From: Pseudomonadota bacterium
Lineage (GTDB): Bacteria > Desulfobacterota > Desulfobulbia > Desulfobulbales > Desulfocapsaceae
NCBI GenBank assembly: GCA_018821985.1
Contig: JAHJKP010000015.1
Location: forward strand, 1-34,637
Direction of reading: 5' to 3'
DNA length: 34,637 bases
Shown here: piece by piece, positions 741 through 32,264 of the stretch
Numbering within the stretch: position 1 is the first letter of the stretch
How the letters are laid out: the number at the start of each line of letters is the position of its first letter
Translations under genes and position numbers: made by a program
Notes under the pieces: generated by a model
What the model was told of the DNA's origin: nothing
The model's input: only the letters and a program-made list of their open reading frames with translations
Database searches by the model: none

Positions 741-3332
741 TCAAGTGCCAATATGAAGTCGCCCCTCTCGAAGATCGACCAGTATATGATCTCCCTCAAG
801 AAAACGACCACTTAGAAGCTCCATCGCCAAAGGATCTTCCAAATAACGCTGGATAGCCCTTTTCAAAGGACGTGCTCCAAACAATGGGTTAAACCCTGCA
901 TCTACCAGATACGCTTTTGCCGCATCGGTAATGGTAAATTTATACTTTCTCTCTTCCAGCCTGGCGACCAACCTTTGTAGCTGGATATCTATAATGGAGC
1001 TCATGTCTTTCCTGGACAGGCTGTGGAAGATAATCGTTTCATCCACCCTGTTCAGAAACTCTGGCTTAAACTTCTGATGAAGAAGTTCTTCGATCTGATT
1101 ACGGACCACATCATCACCGACATGCTCCTCTGCCATTTTAAGGATCAGATCACTACCAAGATTTGAGGTCATGATCAGGATTGTGTTCTTAAAATTTACA
1201 GTCCTCCCCTTACCATCAGTCATCCGCCCATCATCCAAGACTTGCAGCAGGACGTTGAAAACATCTGGATGCGCCTTTTCAATCTCGTCTAGAAGCACTA
1301 CGGAATAAGGGCGTCTACGTACCGCCTCCGTGAGATAGCCCCCCTCTTCATAACCAACATATCCAGGAGGAGCACCAATAAGTCTGGCCACGGAGTGTTT
1401 TTCCATAAACTCTGACATATCAATGCGAATCATGGCCTGCACACTATCAAAAAGAAAATCTGCAAGCGACCTGGCAAGCTCTGTTTTCCCTACTCCGGTG
1501 GGACCTAGAAAGATAAATGAGCCAAGTGGACGATCAGGGTCCTGCAAACCCGCCCGTGCCCGACGCACCGCATTGGCAACCGCCTTGATAGCGTCTTCCT
1601 GACCGACCACCTTAGCAGCAAGCGCTGATTCAACGTGTACCAGTTTGTCCTTCTCACCTTCCAAAAGCTTATCTACTGGGATACCAGTCCATTTCGCAAC
1701 TACAGCTGCAATATCTTCCGCTCCCACCTCCTCTTTCAGCATCTGGCTTTTTTCCTGAATCTGCTGCAACTTCATATTGGCTTCTTCAAGATCCTTCTGG
1801 AGTTTGATAATCCTGCCATAACGAATTTCTGCCACCTTGCTCAGATCACCAATCCGCTCAGCGCGCTGCTCCTCCATATGTGCTTCATCAATACTTGCCT
1901 TGATCTGGCGAATGCTTTGAATAACATCACGCTCGATGGTCCACTGCCCCTTCATAGCATTTAAAGAATCATTCAGTTCGCCAAGTTTTTTTCTCAGCTC
2001 CACAAGACGTTCTTTCGACGCTGAATCTTTTTCCTTTTTCAGGGCCTCCTGCTCTATTTCCAACTTTATTTTCTTGCGTTCCAGTTCATCAATCTCTGTG
2101 GGCATGGAATCAATCTCAATACGCAGGCAAGATGCGGCCTCGTCAATGAGATCAATGGCCTTATCAGGAAGAAAACGATCGGTGATATAACGACTTGATA
2201 GAATAACTGCAGCAACCGTTGCCGCATCCTGGATCCGGACTCCATGATGTACTTCATATTTTTCCTTGATGCCGCGCAGGATGGCAATGGTATCTTCCTC
2301 ACTCGGTTCCTGGATTAGAACCGGCTGGAATCTTCGCTCCAGAGCAGCATCCTTCTCGATATATTTTCTATACTCATCAAGTGTTGTGGCACCGATACAG
2401 TGCAGCTCCCCACGGGCCAGAGCAGGTTTAAGCATATTGGAGGCATCCATGGAACCTTCAGCAGCCCCAGCCCCCACCAGGGTATGAATTTCATCGATAA
2501 AGAGAATGATCTCCCCAGCCCGCTTTTCGACTTCTTTCAGCACCGCCTTCAGCCTGTCCTCAAACTCACCACGATACTTAGCTCCTGCGATCAAGGAACC
2601 TAGGTCAAGGGATACAACCTGTTTTCCCTGCAAGGTTGCTGGAATATCGCCATTTACAATGCGCTGAGCAAGACCTTCAGCGATGGCCGTTTTTCCAACC
2701 CCCGGCTCACCAATCAGAATAGGATTATTTTTAGTGCGACGGGACAGAACCTGGATCACTCGCCGTATCTCTTCATCTCTTCCTATGACGGGGTCTAGCT
2801 TTCCATTTCTGGCAATATCGGTCAGGTTGCGCGCATATTTTTCCAGGGCCTGATATTTTTCTTCAGGATACTGATCAGTAACCCGTTGATTGCCGCGAAT
2901 GGTAGTCAGAGCCGTCAGGAAGGTTTTCTCATCAACGCCCTTATTACGCAGCATCTTAGAAGTCTCAGACTTACCATCCTTGATAAGGGTGAGGAAAAGA
3001 TGTTCCTGACTGACAAATTCATCCTGCATCTGACTTGCAGTAGTGAATGCCTTGTCGAGGAGCTGTTTTAACTCGGCTGAGATATAGGCCTGACCCGCGC
3101 CACTGCCTGAGACCTGTGGAATCTTATCAATGAGTTTATTCAACTCCATCAGAATAATGGCAGGATCGACTCCCATTTTCTGGAGTACCGGCACAACAAC
3201 ACCCTCAGGTTGTTCAAGAATGGCTCTGGCCAGATGTGCTGATTGAATTTCCTGATGGGATTTATTCTGAGCGAGTTGCTGGGCCGCCTGAATCGCTTCC
3301 TGAGACTTTATGGTAAATTTATCAAACTGCAT
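741..3332 (-). CDS. clpB: ATP-dependent disaggregase ClpB
   Basis: ClpB is the Hsp100 ring ATPase that pulls polypeptides out of aggregates together with DnaK in the cytoplasm. At 863 residues it has the normal full length. The N-terminal Clp repeat domain spans about residues 1-145. The first AAA+ module carries Walker A GEPGVGKT at 208-215. The long charged coiled-coil M-domain, which separates ClpB from ClpA and ClpC, spans about 400-525. The second AAA+ module has GPTGVGKT at about 610, followed by the C-terminal D2-small domain. The start is supported by a strong AGGAGGAG site (3339-3346) five to seven bases upstream. It is monocistronic: a hairpin terminator follows it, and a heat-shock-like promoter and a terminator-like leader hairpin precede it. 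Nothing in the protein is truncated. Confidence 0.98.
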
Positions 3333-3451: not shown

Positions 3452-3499
3452 TTTTTGACTATAAAGAAGTAGGTGCAGAAACAGAAATACTAAAGAGAG

Positions 3500-3537
3500 A
3501 AAAAAAAAGAAGCGAGCCTCAAAGAAATGAGGCTCGC
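3500..3537 (-). terminator. Intrinsic terminator of the hesB-like selenoprotein gene
   Basis: A perfect nine-base-pair stem (GCGAGCCTC / GAGGCTCGC, eight-base loop, 3512-3537) is followed on the minus strand by a long T-rich run. It lies 21 bases after the stop codon of the HesB-like gene. This is a textbook Rho-independent terminator. Confidence 0.9.
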
Positions 3538-3558
3538 CAAAGAAATCATGCCAGGTAA

Positions 3559-3903
3559 TCAGCTACAGCCGCCGGAGCTACAGGAGCCGGAGCTACAGCC
3601 GCCACCGCCACCCCCAATCGGGTTACTAGAGGTAATGCCGAACCCGGAACGTGGACCAGCATCAACATAATCGACACGAACTGTACCACAAGTAGTTAAG
3701 AGACCTTCCTCTACGAGGAACTTCAAACCACCGTTGTCAAAAATCTTATCATTATCTTTTGGCTCATCCAGAGCCAATCCCAAAGAGGGGCCTGCTCAGC
3801 CACCTTGCATCAAGGCAATACGCAAGGCAGAATCAATACTATTCTGCTCCAGGTATTCAGTAAGTTTTTGCACTGCCTGGTCAGTAACTGTAAAATCAGA
3901 CAT
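3559..3903 (-). CDS. HesB/IscA-like selenoprotein (in-frame UGA = Sec36)
   Basis: The gene starts at an ATG with an AGGAGG site upstream and reads 35 codons to a TGA at 3796-3798. It continues in the same frame for 78 more residues, 114 in total. The two halves form one HesB/IscA-type protein: MQGG-U-AGPSLGLALDE aligns with the GGC-SG motif of IscA, so the UGA replaces the first cluster-binding cysteine. A perfect seven-base-pair hairpin follows the UGA at the distance expected of a bacterial SECIS. The usual C-terminal CGC is replaced by a glycine-rich tail (CSSGSCSSGGC). HesB-like selenoproteins of this form are a known bacterial family. The role is presumably Fe-S or selenium/sulfur handling but is not established. 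Ordinary gene calling would report only the 74-residue C-terminal piece (3559-3783). Confidence 0.9.
3759..3777 (-). promoter_or_regulatory. SECIS-like element of the HesB-like selenoprotein
   Basis: On the minus strand TTGGCTC pairs perfectly with GAGCCAA across the five-base loop TGGAT. The loop begins 26 bases after the UGA and has G as its second and third bases. A lower stem (TCTT / AAGA) can extend it past a bulge. This agrees with the bacterial SECIS rule of an apical loop 16-37 bases downstream of UGA with a G among its first two bases, which SelB would bind. Confidence 0.8.
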
Positions 3904-4191
3904 ATAAATCCTCCTGTAATCTATGGTTAATTAAAAGTTATTGTATTTTCAATTGGTAATTGCTTATATATTTTCCATCTACTGACAGGGAAAATTGCCC
4001 TTCCAATCATACATAAAGATGTTACTATCTATGTTAAGTTGCAAATCTCCAGAAGTCAATCCTCATTATACAAGAAGCTGCATTGAATATATACAAAATC
4101 ACATCTTTTTTCACCAACTACAAAGAAATTTATATTTTAAGAACAAATTATGACTCTTGACTGACTGAAATTTCAAACAAGGACTACTGAT
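3904..4191. other. Divergent intergenic region between the hesB-like gene and pfk
   Basis: This AT-rich 288-base region should hold the promoters of both divergent genes. The AGGAGG site of the selenoprotein gene lies at 3910-3915 (minus), and an AAGGA site precedes pfk. No strong -35/-10 pair or operator stands out. Confidence 0.4.
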
Positions 4192-5283
4192 ATGAAAAAA
4201 ATTGTAATTTCAACAGGAGGCGGTGATGCTCCAGGGCTGAATGCGGTTATCTATGCTGTTGTTCATTCATGTTATCGGCGTGGTTGGGAGGTATACGGCA
4301 GCCGAAGCGGCTATAAAGGTTTATTAAATCTTGATGAGCTAAAGCGTCTCGGCCTAGAGGATGTTGAAGAAATTTATGCCACTGGTGGCACTATCCTCGG
4401 CTCGACAAATAAAGGGAACCCGTTCTCAATGCCTGTAGAAAATCTGGCGGGCGAGATTCAGATTGTTGATATTTCTGATAAAATAATAAACAATTTCAAA
4501 CGGATGGGATTTGACTGTCACATCGCTATTGGTGGAGATGGCAGTCTTGAGATCGCCCATCGTTTCTCTCTGAAAGGGATGCCCGTTATCGGTGTCCCCA
4601 AAACCATCGACAATGACCTTGAGGCAACAGACCGAACTTTTGGTTTTGACACGGCAGTGTCAACGGCAACAGAGGCCCTGGACAAACTGCATTCAACGGC
4701 CAAATCCCACGATCGAGTCATGGTGGTTGAGGTTATGGGACGCGATTCCGGCTGGATAGCTCTTTACTCAGGGATCTCGGGAGGTGCAGATGTAATTCTA
4801 ATACCCGAGATACCCTTTGACATGGACGCAGTATGCAAGAAGATAACAGACAATGAACTACACGGTAAAGATTACGCCATCGTAGTTGTCGCCGAAGGTG
4901 CCAGCGTCAAAGGTGGAACGGTAATCAACAAAGGCGAGGGCGAACTGGGAAGGACTGAGCTTGTTCTTGGAGGGGTCGGTGAATGGGTGGCCGCTGAGAT
5001 TCGGAAACGAATAAACAAAGATACGCGGTCTCTGGTGCTTGGCCACCTGCAGCGAGGCGGTTCGCCTACGACCTTTGATCGTTTATTGGCATTACGTTTT
5101 GGAGCCGCTGCTGTGCGCCTGGTTGAAAAGGGCATCTTTGGTCACATGGTGGCCCTGTCGGCTTCCTCCATGGTCCCGGTTCCTTTGATTAACGCCATCA
5201 AGTCTCGGAAAAAGGTAGATTTGACGAGTGACAAAGTTTTGACCGCAAGAGATATAGGTATTTGCCTAGGAGATTATTACTAA
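4192..5283 (+). CDS. pfkA: 6-phosphofructokinase (group III type)
   Basis: This cytoplasmic glycolytic enzyme phosphorylates fructose 6-phosphate to the 1,6-bisphosphate. The 363-residue protein has the N-terminal nucleotide loop (ISTGGGDAPGLNAVI, residues 6-20), GGDGS at 114-118, the catalytic PKTIDND at 136-142, and the substrate-binding MGRDSGWIA segment. ATP enzymes usually have Gly at both diagnostic sites (GGDGS and PGTIDND). Pyrophosphate enzymes have Asp and Lys. This protein combines Gly with Lys, as in the group III or mixed-substrate clade, so the phosphoryl donor cannot be read from the sequence. An AAGGA site lies eight bases before the ATG. The next gene follows after 33 bases on the same strand, suggesting co-transcription. 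Confidence 0.93.
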   Translation: MKKIVISTGGGDAPGLNAVIYAVVHSCYRRGWEVYGSRSGYKGLLNLDELKRLGLEDVEEIYATGGTILGSTNKGNPFSMPVENLAGEIQIVDISDKIINNFKRMGFDCHIAIGGDGSLEIAHRFSLKGMPVIGVPKTIDNDLEATDRTFGFDTAVSTATEALDKLHSTAKSHDRVMVVEVMGRDSGWIALYSGISGGADVILIPEIPFDMDAVCKKITDNELHGKDYAIVVVAEGASVKGGTVINKGEGELGRTELVLGGVGEWVAAEIRKRINKDTRSLVLGHLQRGGSPTTFDRLLALRFGAAAVRLVEKGIFGHMVALSASSMVPVPLINAIKSRKKVDLTSDKVLTARDIGICLGDYY

Positions 5284-22981: not shown

Positions 22982-25450
22982 ATGGGAAGGGCTGGAGGGT
23001 ACAAATCACTTGCTCCTGACGAGGATATTTCCTTAATCCACGAATTGCGTATGCATCAGATCAAACTGGAGGTGCAAAATGAGGAGCTGTGCCGCGCCCA
23101 GGATGTGTTGATCGCCAAAAATAAGCGTATTCAAGATCTTTATGATCAGGACCCAATCGGCTATTTCTCTCTCAGTGACCAGTATCTGATTCTCGATGCC
23201 AATAGTACTGCCCATACTCTGCTTGGCAGGGACAGAGGGAAGCTGCTTCATCAGCCATTTACCCGTTTTATCCTTCCCGAAGAACAAGACCTCTTTTCCC
23301 TCTTCCGAACACGACTTATTGAAACGAATAATTCAGAGAACCTTGATGTGCGTATGGTGCGCGCTGACGGTTCCTCAGTTTGGGTACGTTTGAACGTGAA
23401 GTGTATCCAGCCCTACGATAACAACGACATACAATTTTATCGCGCCGCAATAACTGATATCAGCGATATGAAGCAGATCGAGGAGACACTCCTCTTTCTC
23501 GCGCATCATATCCCCGGTGAATCTTTTTTTACCTCGCTGGCGCGACACCTGGCGCAAGCGCTGAATATAGACTTTGTCTGCATCAACTCGCTTGATGGCG
23601 ATGGTTTGAGCGCCCAAACCTTGGCCGTCTATCACAATGGAGAATTCAAGAATAACGTACGACATGCCTTGAAAGATACCCCCTGCGGCGAAGTGGTGGG
23701 CAAGGAGATCTGCTGTTTTCCCGCCGATGTCTGCCACTCGTTCCCGCAGGATGAGTTCCTCAAAGATCTTCGGGCTGAGAGTTTTGTCGGAGTTACACTC
23801 TGGAGTAGCTCCGGTCAACCGATTGGCCTGATCGCAGTCATTGACCACCAGCCCCTGGCAAACCAGTCTCAGGTGGAAGCCATGCTGAAACTGGTGGCGG
23901 TCCGTGCGGCAGGCGAACTCGAACGATTGACGATAACGAATGCCCTGATGGCAAGCGAGAAGCTGTATGCGCTGACCTGTTCTGCTGTCAACGACGGTCT
24001 CTGGGAATGGCCTATCCCGAGCGGAAAGGGTTTTTTCAGCACCCGCTATTACGAGATGCTCGGCTATAATGACGGCGAGTTCCCGGCTGACTATGCGACG
24101 TGGCGAACACTGGTTCATCCCCAAGATATCGACAGGGTAGAAGAAGAGTTATGGCAGAATGTCGAGATGGGAAAAAGATTTTTATTCGACCTCCGAATAA
24201 AGAAGAAATCTGGTGAGTGGTTGTGGGTCTGCTCCCGCGGCAAAGTCATAGAACAAGATAGTGCGGGAAAAGGTCTGCGGATGTTAGGAACGATGACCGA
24301 TATCACCAACCGCAAGGAAGCGGAACATGCGCTGCAGAAACACAATGAAACCTATCGGGATATCCTGTCGACTGCCTTCGATGGCTTCTGGCTCGTCGAT
24401 TTTCAAGGTAATATCCTTGACGTCAATGAAAGTTACTGTCGTCAGTCCGGATATTCGCGGGAGGAACTGCTTAGCATGCACCCCTACGAGCTGGACGTAA
24501 CTGAAACTGAAGCAGACACCGCAGACCACATTAGACGTATCATTGAAAGCGGCACACAGTCTATGTTCGAAACGATTCACCGCCGCAAGGACGGATCGAC
24601 CTGGAACGTTGAGATCAGCGTCGGCCTGAGCAATAAAGCAGGTGGCCAGTTCGTCGCCTTCCTGCGCGATATTACTGCCCGCAAGATGGCTGAGAAGATG
24701 ATAGTCCGTTCGCTGCAGGAAAAGAAGGTATTGGTTCAGGAGCTCCGCAAGCGGATTAAAGTTCACGTACGAGTAATCGAGGACGTGATCTCTCTCCAGG
24801 CCAGTCTGGCCCGTTCGCTGCAGGAGAAGAAGGTGCTGTTGCAGGAGGTCCATCATCGGGTGAAAAACAACCTGCAGGTGGTCCACAGCGTACTCTCCCT
24901 CCAGGCCAGACGAGTTGCAGATTCCGAGACCCGCCTCCTGTTTGATGGGAGTATAAACCGAATTCACACCATGTCCCTGCTTCATGAGAGACTCTGCCAT
25001 GCTAAAGACCTGGGCAGCATCGACTTCAATAATTACCTGAAATCGCTTATTGACGTTATTGTGTCGACCTATCCTTATCCCCATATTACCTGTGTCGTGG
25101 AGACGGAACCAGTTTTTCTTGATCTGACAACCGGTACCCCCTGCGGCCTGATTGCCCATGAGCTGATCACGAACAGCATCATCCACGCCTTTCCTGATGG
25201 GAGGGTTGGGACGATTAGTGTCGGTATGCATAAGCCCAGCCCAGGATTTATTGTCTTGACGGTCGAAGATAACGGCATTGGTTTCCGGCCGAATTTTAAA
25301 GCCAGCAGCAGCTCGTCGCTGGGGATGCAAATCGTCAACGGACTCACAACACAAATCCACGGGACGATAGACTACTCCACGGCCGATGGCACTAAAGTGT
25401 GCGTAAGCTTTCCTGAAAAGTTTGCACGAAATTATGGAGTGACCATATAA
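22982..25450 (+). CDS. Multi-PAS/GAF sensor histidine kinase (HisKA_2 type)
   Basis: This soluble kinase has 822 residues and no membrane segment. An N-terminal coiled coil (about 18-55) leads to PAS1 (about 55-165), a GAF domain (about 170-315), PAS2 of the PAS_3 kind (about 325-448) and PAS3 (about 455-568). A phosphoacceptor region of the HisKA_2 family follows, with HHRVKNN at 624-630, then HATPase with HELITNSIIHAF, VEDNGIGF and SLGMQIVNGLTTQ. Residues 576-610 are a tandem, degenerate copy of the phosphoacceptor helix (611-645) in which the HH is RK. The gene ends two bases before the response regulator at 25453, so the two form a two-component pair. The sensed signal is likely cytoplasmic but not identifiable. 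Confidence 0.95.
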   Translation: MGRAGGYKSLAPDEDISLIHELRMHQIKLEVQNEELCRAQDVLIAKNKRIQDLYDQDPIGYFSLSDQYLILDANSTAHTLLGRDRGKLLHQPFTRFILPEEQDLFSLFRTRLIETNNSENLDVRMVRADGSSVWVRLNVKCIQPYDNNDIQFYRAAITDISDMKQIEETLLFLAHHIPGESFFTSLARHLAQALNIDFVCINSLDGDGLSAQTLAVYHNGEFKNNVRHALKDTPCGEVVGKEICCFPADVCHSFPQDEFLKDLRAESFVGVTLWSSSGQPIGLIAVIDHQPLANQSQVEAMLKLVAVRAAGELERLTITNALMASEKLYALTCSAVNDGLWEWPIPSGKGFFSTRYYEMLGYNDGEFPADYATWRTLVHPQDIDRVEEELWQNVEMGKRFLFDLRIKKKSGEWLWVCSRGKVIEQDSAGKGLRMLGTMTDITNRKEAEHALQKHNETYRDILSTAFDGFWLVDFQGNILDVNESYCRQSGYSREELLSMHPYELDVTETEADTADHIRRIIESGTQSMFETIHRRKDGSTWNVEISVGLSNKAGGQFVAFLRDITARKMAEKMIVRSLQEKKVLVQELRKRIKVHVRVIEDVISLQASLARSLQEKKVLLQEVHHRVKNNLQVVHSVLSLQARRVADSETRLLFDGSINRIHTMSLLHERLCHAKDLGSIDFNNYLKSLIDVIVSTYPYPHITCVVETEPVFLDLTTGTPCGLIAHELITNSIIHAFPDGRVGTISVGMHKPSPGFIVLTVEDNGIGFRPNFKASSSSSLGMQIVNGLTTQIHGTIDYSTADGTKVCVSFPEKFARNYGVTI
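24707..24916 (+). repeat. Tandem 105-bp duplication within the kinase gene
   Basis: Bases 24707-24811 and 24812-24916 are similar 35-codon units. Both begin CGTTCGCTGCAGGA and both contain CTCTCCCTCCAGGCCAG or a close variant. They encode RSLQEKKVL(V/L)QE, then a variable core, then SLQA. The duplication is in frame and exactly adjacent. Confidence 0.85.
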
Positions 25451-25452
25451 CT

Positions 25453-26385
25453 ATGCAAGCAACTGAGACAACTTCTTTCCAATCAATAAGCGGATCTCTT
25501 CCCACCAATGACTCAAACAAAAAACAAATCCCCAAGATATTGGTGGTGGAAGATGAATTTTTAACTGCCTTGAATATCCAGGAAGATTTGATACTGTCCG
25601 GCTACGAAGTCCCTGCCCTGGCAAAAAGTGGGGAGGAGGCGATCCGTCTGGCAACGGAGCTGCAGCCGGACCTGATTTTGATGGACATCCTGCTTGATGG
25701 TTCCATGACCGGGATAGAGGCGGCAACTGAGATACGAAAGACTCACCCCATCCCCATGATCTATCTGACCGCCCATAGTAGCTCCGATATGCTCAATCAG
25801 GCAAAATTAACCGAGCCCTTCGGCTATCTTTCTAAACCCTGTTCCCAGGCGACCCTGAAGAGCATGATAGAGATGGCGCTTCACAAAAATTTTATAGATT
25901 CAAACAAACAGGAATTAGAAAAACAACAGTTTGAGACTGAGCTGTCAAAAACGGTCTTCAAAGTACAGGAAGCAAATACGGCGATAAAGGTCTTACTGGA
26001 GCACAGAAATCTGGAAATCCAAGAACTTGAGCAAAACATTCAAACGAATGCCTCCAAATTGATCCTGCCCGTTCTGGAGGCACTAGAAAACAGTGAGTTA
26101 ACCGAAAATCAAAGAATAATGGCGGAGTCCATAAGGGTAAATCTGCAATCGCTTACCAAGTCCCATACATCTCACATTGGTCAGGACATCACTCAACTCA
26201 GTAGCACTGAAATACAAGTGGCAAATTTTGTGAAGGCAGGAAAAAGCACCAAAGAGATTTGCCAATTTCTCCATATTTGCGCCAGCACTGTTAATACCCA
26301 TCGGGATAATATCAGAAAAAAACTGGGGATAAAGAACACAAAAATGAATCTCAAAAAAGCACTCCAGCAACTGCTGCAATATTGA
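25453..26385 (+). CDS. Response regulator with LuxR-type DNA-binding domain
   Basis: This 310-residue regulator is the likely partner of the upstream kinase. An N-terminal tail of about 27 residues precedes a REC domain (about 28-145), with acidic VVEDE at 31-35, phosphoacceptor D78 in LILMDILLDG, T106 and K128 in YLSKP. A predicted coiled coil (about 145-200) and a helical segment join it to a LuxR/GerE helix-turn-helix at about 240-305 (LSSTEIQVANFVKAGKSTKE). The long helical linker is unlike ordinary NarL-type regulators, where REC and HTH are closer together. It starts two bases after the kinase stop, so coupled translation is likely. Its DNA targets are unknown; the inverted repeats just downstream are candidates. 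Confidence 0.93.
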   Translation: MQATETTSFQSISGSLPTNDSNKKQIPKILVVEDEFLTALNIQEDLILSGYEVPALAKSGEEAIRLATELQPDLILMDILLDGSMTGIEAATEIRKTHPIPMIYLTAHSSSDMLNQAKLTEPFGYLSKPCSQATLKSMIEMALHKNFIDSNKQELEKQQFETELSKTVFKVQEANTAIKVLLEHRNLEIQELEQNIQTNASKLILPVLEALENSELTENQRIMAESIRVNLQSLTKSHTSHIGQDITQLSSTEIQVANFVKAGKSTKEICQFLHICASTVNTHRDNIRKKLGIKNTKMNLKKALQQLLQY

Positions 26386-26888
26386 GTAGATATTCATCTG
26401 CCGTCCCCCCTCCTTCGTTGTTTTTTCCTGCTGCACAACTCCCTCTTCGACATACCCCAGGGAGTCTATTTAAACTGAACATTCTCATTAGAGGATATTA
26501 CGTTAGACTCCCTGTCGTAACTGATATGAATGTTTTACACGTATCAACCTTCCGGACAAATGGGTAGACATAGCCAGTGGAACGGGCTGTGGCTGTGTCT
26601 GGAGGCAGTTATTTTTAAATATCCTCGCCACGATGTGGCATAATAATATCGTACAAATATGGACAAAACAGAGAAAGCTAAGTTCTTCATGACTGCCAGG
26701 ATATTTAATATTTATGGAGCCTCCCCTCCCTCCTCCATCCATAAAATTAAATTTGCTTTTCCATCAAGATAATTAGAAGATTAAACTTAAGCTGCTCGCT
26801 GAACTTGCCCTGTTCGATAACGAACCTTAGCGAACATCTTCTCCTGGTTACCCCATGTGTCATTATTCTAACCTTAAAGAGTGCAGAG
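26386..26888. other. Long intergenic region rich in inverted repeats
   Basis: These 503 bases have no supported gene. AGGGAGT (26459-26465) can pair either with ACTCCCT at 26438-26444 or, as part of a perfect 11-base repeat CAGGGAGTCTA / TAGACTCCCTG, with 26504-26514. Further right, GGAGGC and AAATATCC (26601-26624) are inverted as GGATATTT and GCCTCC (26699-26724). The region separates the two-component pair from the c-di-GMP/chemosensory block. Confidence 0.55.
26601..26724. repeat. 124-bp segment with inverted-repeat ends
   Basis: The left end GGAGGC...AAATATCC is mirrored by the right end GGATATTT...GCCTCC with similar AT-rich spacing. About 75 bases lie between them. It could be a non-coding miniature element or a pair of protein-binding sites. 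No target-site duplication was identified. Confidence 0.4.
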
Positions 26889-28415
26889 ATGAATCAACAA
26901 TACACAATCCTCTGTGTTGATGACGAACCCATCAACCTCGCGCTGCTGAAGGCGGTGTTGGAACCTAAGGGTTACCAGACCGTGCTGGTGCATGATGGGG
27001 AGGCGGCTCTGGCCAAACTTCATAGCGAACAAATCGACTTGGTGTTGCTGGATGTGATGATGCCGGGGATGGATGGTTTTGAGGTCTGCCGCCGGATCAA
27101 GGCGGATGAGGTGCTCCGCAACATCCCGGTGGTGATGATCACCGGCTATGCCGCCAGGGAGCAGCGGATCCGGGGAATCGAGGCCGGGGCCGAAGATTTC
27201 CTTGCCAAACCCTTTGACAGCACCGAGGTGCTGGCCCGCATTACCATGCTGCTCAAGGTCAAGAGCTTAAACGACCAACTCGCCACCTCCTATCAGCACA
27301 TCAACAGCCTGATCTGCCATGGACAGCAGCTTACTGCCAGCTTCGACCCACTCCATTATGATGTCATGGCCGGAATTACCTCTGTCATCAAGCTCCTGCT
27401 CTCTGCCGCACCTCAGCCCGCTAACAACCCGCAAGCGGTGTTGCTCCGCTTGCAGGGGCAGGACCAGATCTGGCTTTTTTCTTGTCGTGAGAAGACGGAC
27501 TGCACCCTGGTGTGGCGCCCGATTCCGGATTATATCTACCTGGCCCTGAAGACGCTTATCGGTGATCTGCAGATAACCTGGCTAAACCAGACCGACCTGG
27601 ACACCGGCAACGGGGCGCTGCTGGTGGCTGCCATGGCCGAGCTAGGAGTGGTTCCTCTCAACCTGGTCTGCCACCAGAGCGAGGCCATTACTCTCTGCGC
27701 CATGAATTATGGCCGGGAAACCTCCCATTATGACGCTGAGATCCTCAACAGTGTGGCAACGCAAAGTATTTTCCTGACCTCACAGGCGAGTCTAGTCAGG
27801 GAAACCGAGGATGCTTTTGCCTACACGGTCTATGCCCTGGCCAGGGCGGCCGAGTTTAACGATGAAGATACCGGTGACCATATCCTGCGGGTGGGCGAAT
27901 ACTGCGCCTTGCTGGCCCAGCGGATAGGGATGTCTGAGCAGTTTGTTTCCCTGATCCGCTTGCAGGGGATTATGCATGACGTTGGCAAGATCCACATTCC
28001 CTCGGATCTTCTCAGGAAGCCGGGACGGCTGGAACCAGAGGAGTTCAGGCTTATGCAGCAGCATACTGTAGCCGGGCTGGAGATCATTGGTGATCATGTC
28101 CGGCTGACCATGGCCAGAAATATCGCTCACTGCCATCACGAACGCTTCGACGGCACAGGCTATCCACGTGGCCTGCGTGGTGATCAGATCCCGTTTGAGG
28201 CCCGTATCCTTAACCTGGCCGACCAGTACGACGCCCTGCGTAATAAACGCTGCTACAAACCGGCCTTTGACCACGACACCACCTGTCGGATTATCCTTGA
28301 AGGGGATGGCCGCACCCTCCCCCAGCATTTCGATCAACGGGTGCTCGGGGCTTTCAAGGAAATACACGGAATGTTCGCGGAGATCTTCGAGAAGAGTGTG
28401 AAGGATGCCATTTGA
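26889..28415 (+). CDS. Response regulator with GAF-like and HD-GYP domains (c-di-GMP phosphodiesterase)
   Basis: From the ATG at 26889 (the frame opens earlier at a TTG at 26805 without support) the protein has 508 residues. REC spans about 5-125, with D55 in LVLLDVMMPGMDG and K107 in LAKPFD. A GAF-like domain spans about 145-300. An HD-GYP domain spans about 305-500, with HDVGKIH (HD at 363-364), HHERFDGTGYP (416-426) and the aspartates after ILNLADQYDAL. All HD-GYP signature residues are present, so hydrolysis of cyclic-di-GMP to GMP is expected, under control of phosphorylation. It heads the chemosensory block and is 156 bases from the CheW gene. Codon use is noticeably GC-richer than in the two-component pair upstream. 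Confidence 0.95.
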   Translation: MNQQYTILCVDDEPINLALLKAVLEPKGYQTVLVHDGEAALAKLHSEQIDLVLLDVMMPGMDGFEVCRRIKADEVLRNIPVVMITGYAAREQRIRGIEAGAEDFLAKPFDSTEVLARITMLLKVKSLNDQLATSYQHINSLICHGQQLTASFDPLHYDVMAGITSVIKLLLSAAPQPANNPQAVLLRLQGQDQIWLFSCREKTDCTLVWRPIPDYIYLALKTLIGDLQITWLNQTDLDTGNGALLVAAMAELGVVPLNLVCHQSEAITLCAMNYGRETSHYDAEILNSVATQSIFLTSQASLVRETEDAFAYTVYALARAAEFNDEDTGDHILRVGEYCALLAQRIGMSEQFVSLIRLQGIMHDVGKIHIPSDLLRKPGRLEPEEFRLMQQHTVAGLEIIGDHVRLTMARNIAHCHHERFDGTGYPRGLRGDQIPFEARILNLADQYDALRNKRCYKPAFDHDTTCRIILEGDGRTLPQHFDQRVLGAFKEIHGMFAEIFEKSVKDAI

Positions 28416-28571
28416 CCACGCAATAGAAAGCCAACCTCATTAGGGCCAAGTTGCCTGGCGTAGTCAAAACCAAACGTGTTAATCAACAGCTTTCCCACCT
28501 TATCTTTCCCGAAGATCGGGAGCGCTGCTATCTCTATCAAAATGGCCTCACCCCTAAAGGGAGGAGATGAA

Positions 28572-29084
28572 ATGACCTCGAAAAAGATAGCCGCGGGGCA
28601 ACATTGCATGCCTACGCCCCGGCAACTGCTTATTTTTACAATTGACGGTAAAAAGTATGCGATCCACCTGCAGGCGGTCGAACGGGTTGTCCTTGCCGTC
28701 GAGATCACCCCCCTGCCTGAGGAGATGACCATGGTCACCGGAGTGATCAATGTTCAGGGTCAGGTCGTCCCAATATTTAACATCCGCAGAAAATTAAGAC
28801 TGCCCGAACGCGCCATCGATCTGGACGACAACATTGTCATGGTCAAAGGAGAAAAAGGGGTTGTTGCTTTTGTGGTTGACGCGGTGACAGGGGTGATTGA
28901 GCGAAGAGAGGAGGAGATCATCCCTGCCGGCGGCATACTGCCGGAGATGGAATACACCGAAGGGGCGATAACGATAGACGACGATATCGTTTTTCTGCAT
29001 AATATCGACAAGGCTCTCTCTTTTGAGGAAAAAATCCAGCTTACAACTGCTCTGGAAAAAGGGTCAGCGGTCCCCGACAATTAG
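28572..29084 (+). CDS. cheW: CheW-like chemosensory coupling protein 1
   Basis: This 170-residue coupling protein contains one CheW domain (about 15-160): LLIFTIDGKKYAIHLQAVER, then VTGVINVQGQVVPIFNIRRK, the classic CheW core that bridges receptor and CheA. The start is set by AGGGAGG seven bases before an ATG. An upstream in-frame ATG at 28476 lacks a site. It is the first of two different CheW proteins in the block, as in Wsp-type systems (WspB and WspD). Similarity to the second is limited to the core, so they probably occupy different positions in the array. The next gene, a diguanylate cyclase, follows after 88 bases. Confidence 0.93.
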   Translation: MTSKKIAAGQHCMPTPRQLLIFTIDGKKYAIHLQAVERVVLAVEITPLPEEMTMVTGVINVQGQVVPIFNIRRKLRLPERAIDLDDNIVMVKGEKGVVAFVVDAVTGVIERREEEIIPAGGILPEMEYTEGAITIDDDIVFLHNIDKALSFEEKIQLTTALEKGSAVPDN

Positions 29085-29172
29085 GCAATTGCAAGATGAA
29101 TCAAAACGTGCGGATTTCACCCGCCCCTATTTTTAAAATAAGAGATTTTATGTAACCATTGAGGGATAGTGA

Positions 29173-30741
29173 ATGAGGGATCCAACACATGGCAGCCTTT
29201 CAATCCTGATTGCGGAAGACAGTCGTACCCAGGCAGAACAGTTACGGTTTATTCTTGAAAACAATGGCTATGAGGTCCGGCTTGCCCTCAACGGCAGAGA
29301 GGCCCTGGCCATGCTGGCTGAGCAAATACCTGAACTGGTGATCAGCGATATCAACATGCCTGAGATGGATGGCTACGAGCTCTGCACGCAGATCAAGTCT
29401 GACCGCACTCTGGCGGAGATTCCGGTGATTCTCGTAACCGCACTTTCCGAGACCAGGGATCTGTTACAGGGTCTGGAGTGCGGGGCTGATTCTTATATTA
29501 CCAAGCCCTATGATGAAGCAGACCTTATAAAAGGCATCAAACAGGTAGTGGAGGGTGAAAAACTATTGCTGGAGAACAACTCTCTTATGGTTCCTTTCCA
29601 TGGAGAAAGCTATAGGATCAACAACAATGCCTCGAATATCCTCAATTTTCTCATAACGACCTATGACCTGGCGGTAAAGAAAAATATCTTCCTGGCCGCG
29701 GCCAATGTCCTGCTCTATGACGAGATCGCCGAGCGAAAGAGTGTTGAAGAGAGGATCCTCCGGAACAACGAGTTCCTCACCATACTGCACAAAATTTCCA
29801 TTGTGGCCAGCGAAACGATAGAGTTGGACCTGCTTATTCCGGAAATAATGAAGGCCGTTACCGTTATCGGCATGCTGAAATGCGAGCCCAAGGGCACCAT
29901 CTTCCTTGCCGGGGAAGATGGCCTCCATCTCGCCTGTGGGATTGGACATTCACAGGAATTTAAGGAAAAACATCGCCTCGTTCCCTACGGGACATGCCTG
30001 TGCGGTCTTTCCGCCAAAACAGGGGAGGTGGTCATTTCCATGAACTCCGAGACAGACAGTCGTCACACGCTCCAATCCTGTGGCATGGATCCACATGGCC
30101 ATATCATTATCCCGCTGAAAGCAAAAAACAGACTGGTCGGGGTCTTGAGCCTGTCTCTTGCTCTAGAGGACATTCAATTGGAAATAGACAGTCAGATGTC
30201 AGCCTTGCTTGCGGCACTTGGCCAGCAAGTAGGTCTGGCCATTGATAATGCCAGGCTCTATGAGCAAACCAGAATATCTTCTCTGCACGATCCGCTCACC
30301 GGGATTGCCAACAGGAGGATGATGGAAATTCTCCTGAACAAGCAGTTCTCCCTGAGCAAGAGGAATAACAACCCGCTTTCTCTCCTCATGTTTGATATTG
30401 ACCATTTCAAAAGGTACAATGACACTATGGGGCATGTCGAGGGCGATAAGGTCCTTGTCGTCATCGCTCAGATCGCCGCAGAGGAGATCAGGGAAACAGA
30501 CACTGTATTCAGGTATGGCGGAGAGGAGTTTCTTATCCTGTTGCCGGGGGAACCTCTGTCTAGCGCGCTCGTAATTGCGGAAAGGCTAAGAAGCGCCGTC
30601 GAACGGCAAACCCCAGTTACCATAAGCCTTGGAGCTGCGTCCTATGTTCAGGGCATGGAACAAATTGAAGAATTTGTTGTGAAGACCGATGATGCCCTGT
30701 ACCGGGCAAAGCAGAATGGCCGAAACCGTGTGGAATCATGA
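29173..30741 (+). CDS. Response regulator diguanylate cyclase (REC-GAF-GGDEF), WspR-like output
   Basis: This 522-residue protein makes cyclic-di-GMP. REC spans about 9-125 (D59 in VISDINMPEMDG, K111 in YITKPYD). A helical linker (about 130-200) contains the motif FHGESYRINNN seen in other delta-proteobacterial REC hybrids. A GAF domain lies at about 205-360 and the GGDEF domain at about 365-520 with DPLTGIANRR and GGEEF at 449-453. The inhibitory site RETD at 440-443 lies five residues before GGEEF, so product inhibition is likely. WspR is REC-GGDEF; the extra GAF domain sets this one apart. It is flanked by CheW and CheR genes, which makes it the probable output of the chemosensory pathway and the counterpart of the HD-GYP enzyme upstream. 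Confidence 0.95.
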   Translation: MRDPTHGSLSILIAEDSRTQAEQLRFILENNGYEVRLALNGREALAMLAEQIPELVISDINMPEMDGYELCTQIKSDRTLAEIPVILVTALSETRDLLQGLECGADSYITKPYDEADLIKGIKQVVEGEKLLLENNSLMVPFHGESYRINNNASNILNFLITTYDLAVKKNIFLAAANVLLYDEIAERKSVEERILRNNEFLTILHKISIVASETIELDLLIPEIMKAVTVIGMLKCEPKGTIFLAGEDGLHLACGIGHSQEFKEKHRLVPYGTCLCGLSAKTGEVVISMNSETDSRHTLQSCGMDPHGHIIIPLKAKNRLVGVLSLSLALEDIQLEIDSQMSALLAALGQQVGLAIDNARLYEQTRISSLHDPLTGIANRRMMEILLNKQFSLSKRNNNPLSLLMFDIDHFKRYNDTMGHVEGDKVLVVIAQIAAEEIRETDTVFRYGGEEFLILLPGEPLSSALVIAERLRSAVERQTPVTISLGAASYVQGMEQIEEFVVKTDDALYRAKQNGRNRVES

Positions 30742-30770
30742 AACCAGGGTCTGAAGGATGATATCCTAAC

Positions 30771-32264
30771 ATGGGTAAGAGGATAACGGACGATTTACTC
30801 GCAGAGTTCAGCAGCTTTGTTGAAATTCGTATGGGGCTGAGTTTTCCCAAAGAGAAGTGGGCTGACCTGGAAAAAGGTCTGCACACTGCCTATGCGCAAT
30901 TCGGCTGTGATAATGAAGAGAGCTTTGTCCGGCATGTCATGTCAAGCTCCATTTCCAAGAGGCAGATAGAAATGCTCGCCTCAGTCCTGACCGTGGGTGA
31001 GACCTATTTTTTCAGGGAAAAGAAGGCGCTTGATGTCTTTGAGCATATCGTTCATTCCAAGGCGGTCGGACCCCGCAGCAGTAAGGATCGGAATTTGCGG
31101 ATCTGGAGCGCCGGCTGCGCCAGCGGGGAAGAACCTTATACCATTGCCATGATGCTGAAAATGCTGCTCCCAGACCTGAAGGAGTGGAATATCTCCATTC
31201 TGGCAACCGATATCAATCCTCTCTTCATGGAAAAGGCCAGGAAAGGCACTTATACACAATGGTCTTTTCGCGAGGTCCCCGAGCCAATCATCAACCGATT
31301 TTTTATAAAACGGGCAGGAGAGCTGGAGATACTGCCCGAGATCAAAGAGATGGTCACCTTTTCTTACCTGAACCTGATGGAGGATGGCTACCCTTCCCTG
31401 CTGAACAACACCAACGCCATGGATGTGATATTCTGCCGCAATGTCCTTATGTACTTTGCCCCGGAGACCATAAAACAAGTGACGCAGAGATTCCACCAAT
31501 GCCTGACGGACGGCGGTCGGCTGATCGTCAGCCAGACAGAAATCAACGATGAATATTTTCAAGGCTTCGAGAAGGCGAGCCATGCGCATGCCCTGATTTT
31601 TAGAAAGGCAACGGCAAAAGTTGAGAACAAGCAATATCGGTGGCCGTCAGCGGCAGATCTGCCGGAGGCCGGAAAAACTCAGAGTGAGGAGACTCACAAG
31701 CCCCCCCCTGCCCTGGCGGCAGAGAAGAGGAGCAAAGGGGAAATCTGCACAGGAGTTGAAGCAGCGAACCTTTATGAGATGGCAGAAAAGGCCTGCAAAC
31801 AGGGGGAATATGGCCGGGCCGAAGAGCTTCTGCTGAGACTGCGTGCAGAGATCTCGCCCCATGCCGAGGTATTAACGCTTTTCGCCAGGATATGTGCCAA
31901 CTTGGGGCGGCTTGATGAAGGTCTCCATCATATTGAACAGGCGATCAGAGTGGACACCATGAATCCGGGCCGCCATTTTCTGCACGCCGCCATTCTGCAG
32001 GAATTGGGGCAGAAACAGCAGGCAATGACAGCATTAAGAAAGGCGGTCTACCTGGATGCCGATTTTGCCCTTGCCTACTTTTCCATGGGCAATATCGCCC
32101 TTAGCTCCGGCAAGATGAGGGAAGCCGAGCGCCATTTCAACAGTGCACTGCTGCTATTGCGCAGGCACGGTCATGACGACATCCTGCCGGAGTCCGAAGG
32201 GATGACCGCCGGCAGGCTTATAGAGCTAATAGAGTCGATGAAATGGAGAAAGACTGAGAGATGA
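30771..32264 (+). CDS. cheR: CheR methyltransferase with C-terminal TPR repeats (WspC-like)
   Basis: CheR methylates glutamates of chemoreceptors with S-adenosylmethionine. In this 497-residue protein the N-terminal helical domain (about 1-80) and the methyltransferase domain (about 85-280) are intact. The S-adenosylmethionine motif SAGCASGEEPYTIAMML and ILATDINPLFMEKARKGTY are clear, as is DVIFCRNVLMYF. After a linker of about 50 residues rich in Pro, Glu and Lys come three or four TPR motifs (about 325-470), ending in a charged helix. CheR-TPR proteins are typical of alternative chemosensory pathways such as WspC or FrzF, where the TPR region limits receptor binding. It begins 29 bases after the cyclase stop, so it shares that transcript. 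Confidence 0.95.
   Translation: MGKRITDDLLAEFSSFVEIRMGLSFPKEKWADLEKGLHTAYAQFGCDNEESFVRHVMSSSISKRQIEMLASVLTVGETYFFREKKALDVFEHIVHSKAVGPRSSKDRNLRIWSAGCASGEEPYTIAMMLKMLLPDLKEWNISILATDINPLFMEKARKGTYTQWSFREVPEPIINRFFIKRAGELEILPEIKEMVTFSYLNLMEDGYPSLLNNTNAMDVIFCRNVLMYFAPETIKQVTQRFHQCLTDGGRLIVSQTEINDEYFQGFEKASHAHALIFRKATAKVENKQYRWPSAADLPEAGKTQSEETHKPPPALAAEKRSKGEICTGVEAANLYEMAEKACKQGEYGRAEELLLRLRAEISPHAEVLTLFARICANLGRLDEGLHHIEQAIRVDTMNPGRHFLHAAILQELGQKQQAMTALRKAVYLDADFALAYFSMGNIALSSGKMREAERHFNSALLLLRRHGHDDILPESEGMTAGRLIELIESMKWRKTER

Follow-up and report, generated by a model that had tools for sequence, protein, structure and literature searches.

The window, a stretch of 34,637 nucleotides, carries on its minus strand a short frame that runs from 3903 to 3559 and comprises 114 codons when an in-frame TGA is translated as selenocysteine (Sec), which gives U36 (Table 1). 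A first-pass annotation had described this frame, its TGA and its strong ribosome-binding site just as we find them, with no mention of the strand, and the terminator that it placed downstream agrees with a terminator-like site that has 11 pairs and then a run of T; two terminator-like sites were found in the region against 0.7 expected. Its further statement, that ordinary annotation would truncate the gene, is right for a stop-to-stop ORF caller (the sole entry for this gene in the mechanical ORF list is a fragment of 74 aa at 3559-3783) and goes too far in general, since NCBI already has a model of the family.

Table 1. Coordinates of the features at the locus, in positions of the window
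Feature	Position	Strand	Remarks
Predicted hesB/iscA-like selenoprotein gene	3559..3903	minus	114 residues, Sec36; stop is the second TGA, 3561-3559
Ribosome-binding site AGGAGG	3910..3915	minus	6 nt before ATG, read from the sequence
In-frame TGA, codon 36 (predicted Sec)	3796..3798	minus	present in 45/45 close genes
SECIS-like hairpin TTGGCTC-TGGAT-GAGCCAA, bacterial type	3759..3777	minus	
Gly/Ser/Cys tail, residues 98-114	3562..3612	minus	Cys103 3597-3595, Cys108 3582-3580, Cys113 3567-3565
Terminator-like site	3511..3538	minus	11 pairs, T run after
ClpB-like gene, downstream, same strand	741..3332	minus	neighbour in 39/44 related loci
6-Phosphofructokinase-like gene, divergent	4192..5283	plus	neighbour in 39/44 related loci

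From their sequences, the two flanking genes are tentatively called ClpB-like and 6-phosphofructokinase-like (Pfk-like). Together they are missed ten times among the related loci, and six of these misses fall at contig ends (ClpB in L017 and L024; Pfk in L005, L009, L010 and L034), leaving four away from contig ends (ClpB in L032, L034 and L046; Pfk in L035). Although both flanks are conserved, a terminator-like site lies between the selenoprotein gene and clpB, and thus we claim no functional link. Elsewhere in the window, positions 22982-32264 hold a series of sensor kinase, response regulator, HD-domain, GGDEF and CheR genes by Pfam.

Decoding of the in-frame TGA

The genome to which the window belongs (99.85% complete, 3.3 Mb) contains SelA (547.5 bits), SelB (391.5 bits), SelD (380 bits) and tRNA-Sec (58.7 bits against a gathering score of 47, with an aligned anticodon loop CUUCAAA), and all four exceed their curated cut-offs. 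In 14 control genomes searched at E 0.001, the SelB, SelD and tRNA-Sec searches gave matches in every genome, of which those above the curated cut-off were confined to 2, 2 and 5 genomes, respectively, and SelA matched in 2 of the 14. The tRNA-Sec is detected by Rfam and missed by ARAGORN. It lies on contig 6 (L071:1866-1964) between HdrA-like and MvhD/VhuD-like ORFs, both below their model cut-offs, and the SelD gene (L072, contig 39) has an in-frame TGA near its N-terminus, so that by its sequence it is itself a selenoprotein. The tRNA-Sec also stands 0.8 kb before a Cys-containing paralogue of the present gene; this proximity may be due to chance, because the 1.8-2.0 kb around two Cys genes (L115 and L116) of a same-genus genome gave zero Rfam matches.

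Scanning genome contigs with degenerate peptide patterns returned 46 loci. In 44 of them (L005-L048) codon 36 is TGA, among these L043 of Desulfogranum marinum DSM 2058 and L042 of Desulforhopalus vacuolatus DSM 9700, whereas the remaining two, more distant (L049 and L050), have a Cys codon there. Hence the TGA is kept in all 45 close genes, counting that of the window. The patterns touch the codons of the hairpin described below (43-49) only at codon 49, and one of them demands a Cys codon at position 36, thus the scan did not favour TGA. A wider search with NCBIfam model NF038090 matched in 220 of 395 genomes of the phylum, 168 of them above cut-off, compared with 8 of the 14 control genomes, none above cut-off; among the best 30 loci, 27 have one in-frame TGA and three have none. 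The protein is conserved on either side of the TGA among homologues, and Cys-containing homologues carry cysteine at its position. Two outcomes had been named in the first-pass annotation as speaking against a selenoprotein, namely absence of selA, selB, selC and selD from the genome, and homologues with a stop or unrelated sequence at this position and no conservation after it; the decoding genes are present, as described above, and the homologues align past the TGA.

Just 3′ of the TGA, at 19-37 nt past it, lies a SECIS-like hairpin of seven Watson-Crick pairs whose 5-nt loop (UGGAU) begins at +26. The seven-pair stem, five-base loop and G at the second loop position had all been recognized in the first pass, and a further G occupies position 3. 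When the 20 codons after the TGA were redrawn synonymously, with codon usage taken from five genes of the window, only 18 of 20000 redraws gave at least seven pairs at a suitable distance. The folding energy is ordinary (z −0.96; 34 of 200 shuffles fold equally well), so we rely on the position and conservation of the hairpin and leave thermodynamic stability out as evidence. An Rfam search of 3480-3960 gave no match to the hairpin; the sole hit in this interval up to E 1 was between the terminator region and CyaR, at 19.3 bits against a gathering score of 47.

Because the hairpin overlaps a conserved peptide, and its conservation is therefore partly driven by the protein, we controlled for this with synonymous variation and with Cys genes. 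Across the 45 genes, synonymous variation at codons 43-49 reached 0.16 of the level predicted by their own codon use, compared with 0.90 at 38 codons outside the hairpin (p = 2.9e-5, which overstates independence since many members of this set are closely related). Ala44, Leu45 and Glu47 are each written with one single codon in all 45, and constrained codons also occur outside the hairpin (Gly35 0.24, Ser25 0.31 and Gly38 0.46).

The second control compared 74 Sec genes, which represent only 16 distinct stems, with 21 Cys relatives whose peptide is similar: the inner six stem pairs were intact in 70 of the former and in not one of the latter. Of the 74 Sec genes, 19 depart from standard pairing at the outermost pair (55 conform) and 4 at the second pair (70 conform), and one stem pair has changed from G-C to G-T in 13 Sec genes; the Cys genes of L076 and L105 form 6 of the 7 pairs, with a mismatch within the stem. 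In the Sec gene of L110 (G358:C57:17798-18103) a stem Ala codon has become Val and GAG in the opposite arm has become GAA, so that a C-G pair is replaced by T-A and pairing is kept; this is one compensatory event, not many. A simpler count gave the same direction: all 28 Sec genes and none of the 16 Cys genes have GGCTCTGG inside the stretch where the hairpin starts, once the six of 54 rows dropped by a motif filter (L110a, L110b, L113a, L114a, L119a and L120a) and the Sec duplicates L086, L088, L090 and L100 are set aside. A fuller count by eye gives 29 of 30 Sec genes, because L110a, with its double change, lacks the exact string and L122 has it in its Sec gene; the Cys gene of L122 contains GGCTCTGG six bases too early. 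The count of 74 and 21 genes includes the six filtered rows and excludes the same four duplicates, as well as L049 and L050, both Cys genes, and the Sec gene of L122, in which by eye the five inner pairs are kept and the two outer ones are absent. Separately, in the Cys gene of L123 (G206:C1:85377-85682) the SECIS stem still forms five inner pairs, perhaps as a remnant of a Sec ancestor.

Because selection has maintained the SECIS-like hairpin and the genome has the genes for decoding, we read UGA 36 as a codon that is almost certainly decoded as selenocysteine, as far as comparative sequence data can tell. That the TGA instead truly ends the protein, or is an error of sequencing or assembly, with a pseudogene after it, as the end of the plain ORF at this codon might suggest, is extremely improbable given the identical TGA in all close genes, the 44 relatives conserved beyond it, the full inner stem that distinguishes Sec from Cys genes, and the selA, selB, selD and tRNA-Sec genes, and pseudogene and assembly error were rejected on the first two of these grounds.

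Family membership, tail cysteines and tandem Sec/Cys pairs

The protein scores 135 bits against NF038090 (IscA_HesB_Se, ‘IscA/HesB family protein’; cut-off 85), with residues 4-105 aligned on model positions 2-101, and the gene is a new member of this already described family. The first-pass assignment to HesB/IscA-like proteins was thus right and is refined here. Membership in the broader A-type carrier superfamily is indicated by PF01521 (34 bits against a gathering cut-off of 26.3) together with an IscA fold. More specific models fall below their cut-offs: HesB_rel_seleno TIGR01911 gives 43.6 bits against 66.35 and covers residues 1-77 only, the IscA equivalog TIGR02011 gives 42.9 against 150.6, the general model TIGR00049 gives 54.9 against 58.8, and the SufA and ErpA equivalog models are likewise not reached. 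The Cys-x-Cys C-terminus of IscA is absent, and the tail reads CSSGSCSSGGCS. In alignment with E. coli IscA, U36 falls on a conserved cysteine, Cys35, where the first-pass annotation had placed the first cysteine of the IscA/HesB motif. An AlphaFold2 model has a mean pLDDT of 80.8, with residues 98-114 below 50 and the tail unplaced. Its best PDB fold match is IscA (1r94, TM 0.68), and the ten matches at E of at most 0.001 comprise IscA (four chains), SufA (two), AQ_1857, HI1723, DsrR and one integrative model.

HesB-like selenoproteins had been called a known family, and the literature bears this out: 11 members were tabulated in 2006 (PMC1794560), besides the existence of the NCBIfam model, and Table 1 of a 2026 paper lists the HesB-like selenoprotein as UxGP (PMC13188914). 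The HesB-like selenoprotein of M. maripaludis was identified by mutagenesis and 75Se labelling, and a 2024 paper calls its function ‘not clear’ and mentions, as an unpublished observation, that nitrogen fixation was unimpaired in a disruption mutant (PMC11097638). Among the titles listed in literature searches, none concerned tandem Sec/Cys hesB pairs or a four-ligand tail.

We aligned 36 hand-chosen sequences (33 Sec, with that of the window among them, and three Cys, namely two relatives and the paralogue from the same genome), and the columns A10, R28, U/C36, G38, L41, L45, E47, D52, G87, F88, C103, C108 and C113 were invariant. The first-pass annotation had supposed that a glycine- and cysteine-rich tail replaces the normal CGC end; the C-terminal cysteines have not been lost, three of them being invariant in the 36, and some short tails keep C-x-C. 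Because some short-tailed members terminate in C-x3-C-x-C, the C-x-C pair of IscA has plausibly moved apart to become the last two cysteines of the tail, with C103 as an extra ligand, in an alignment that is gappy over the tail. Moreover, the tail cysteines are common to Sec and Cys members, thus the tail goes with either residue and not with selenium in particular.

The Cys paralogue on contig 6 of the same genome shares 51% identity with the selenoprotein and scores 112.9 bits with NF038090; a PF01521 search of the genome did not find it. In at least ten genomes of the phylum (L104-L112 and L122) a Sec and a Cys gene adjoin on the same strand, with Sec first in seven and Cys first in three; these pairs were taken from the matches listed, not from a census, and that of L122 was found by reading the sequence. 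A tree of 65 rows (44 Sec and 21 Cys), built from 95 columns only and with several long branches, requires 10 changes between Sec and Cys, or at least eight as judged by its well-supported branches. The pairs of L110, L111 and L122 each group with themselves on starred branches, that of L108 does not, and the Sec and Cys genes of three further genomes (L105/L077, L106/L076 and L107/L085) form sister groups, also on starred branches. This pattern of sequence relationships points to at least four independent tandem duplications, or to gene conversion.

Candidate role and relation to known carriers

In the mechanism that we propose, the ribosome would pass UGA 36 with Sec by means of the SECIS-like hairpin and yield a 114-residue protein of IscA-like fold, in which Sec36 would stand in for the first cluster-binding cysteine of IscA. 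Sec36 could then join Cys103, Cys108 and Cys113 of the flexible tail in a selenolate/thiolate site, which may take up either an Fe-S cluster or a soft metal, to hand it on or to protect it. Overall, the best explanation is that the locus very probably encodes a Sec-decoded HesB/IscA-like selenoprotein and putative Fe-S or soft-metal carrier; for the carrier or metal-site role by itself, we would put the chances at about even. Against a carrier role, the ClpB-like and Pfk-like neighbours include no Fe-S assembly genes, and the unimpaired nitrogen fixation of the M. maripaludis mutant likewise counts against it. Because a further gene of the genome, on contig 36, is of the conventional IscA type and has a CGCG motif, the selenoprotein is likely a specialised carrier rather than a housekeeping one.

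Other functions are conceivable for a protein of this composition. Sec36 might form a selenenylsulfide with the tail cysteines and reduce a small oxidant or a disulfide, in which case the protein would be a selenol redox enzyme instead of carrying clusters. Most uncharacterised selenoproteins are considered likely redox proteins in a 2026 paper (PMC13188914), and the low-confidence segment of the model that bears the tail cysteines is perhaps a flexible arm within reach of Sec36. However, the fold matches IscA and SufA, Sec aligns to a conserved IscA cysteine, and the motif is UxGP and not UxxC or CxxU, which leaves redox catalysis an unlikely alternative, with perhaps one chance in several. 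Sequestration or sensing of a toxic soft metal such as mercury through the selenolate and thiolates would agree with four invariant soft ligands in 36 sequences and with the metal binding by Sec suggested in the same paper for other families (PMC13188914), but the conserved neighbours are not resistance genes, and we regard this reading as distinctly improbable.

Returning to the carrier, its features can be combined in a broader and speculative proposal. The family may represent a four-ligand class of A-type carriers (Sec/Cys36 plus three tail cysteines, making a complete site in each subunit), distinct from the three-cysteine IscA; the genes of this class would have been duplicated repeatedly, side by side, as Sec and Cys copies in several lineages of the phylum, and their products would form a mixed selenolate/thiolate oligomer or act as a selenium-dependent switch. 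Taken as a whole this is a tentative and rather unlikely suggestion. A Sec-containing member of the Fe-S carrier superfamily poses the question of what selenium contributes to cluster chemistry, and four conserved soft ligands, tandem Sec/Cys pairs and a conserved genomic place offer handles on the function of the family; we single out the four-ligand tail and the recurrent tandem pairs as worth following.

Compared with known systems, the closest likeness is to NF038090, by score and by the occurrence of both Sec and Cys members in the phylum, with the tail of the window's protein extending nine residues past the matched stretch. With the HesB-like selenoproteins of TIGR01911 it shares Sec and the UxGP motif (here U-A-G-P), whereas its score stays below the cut-off of that model. 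With the A-type carriers IscA, SufA and ErpA it shares the fold, the aligned cysteine position and PF01521, and it differs from them in having Sec for the first cysteine and three more widely spaced tail cysteines instead of C-x-C, such that the three ligands of IscA compare with four invariant soft ligands in the family described here.
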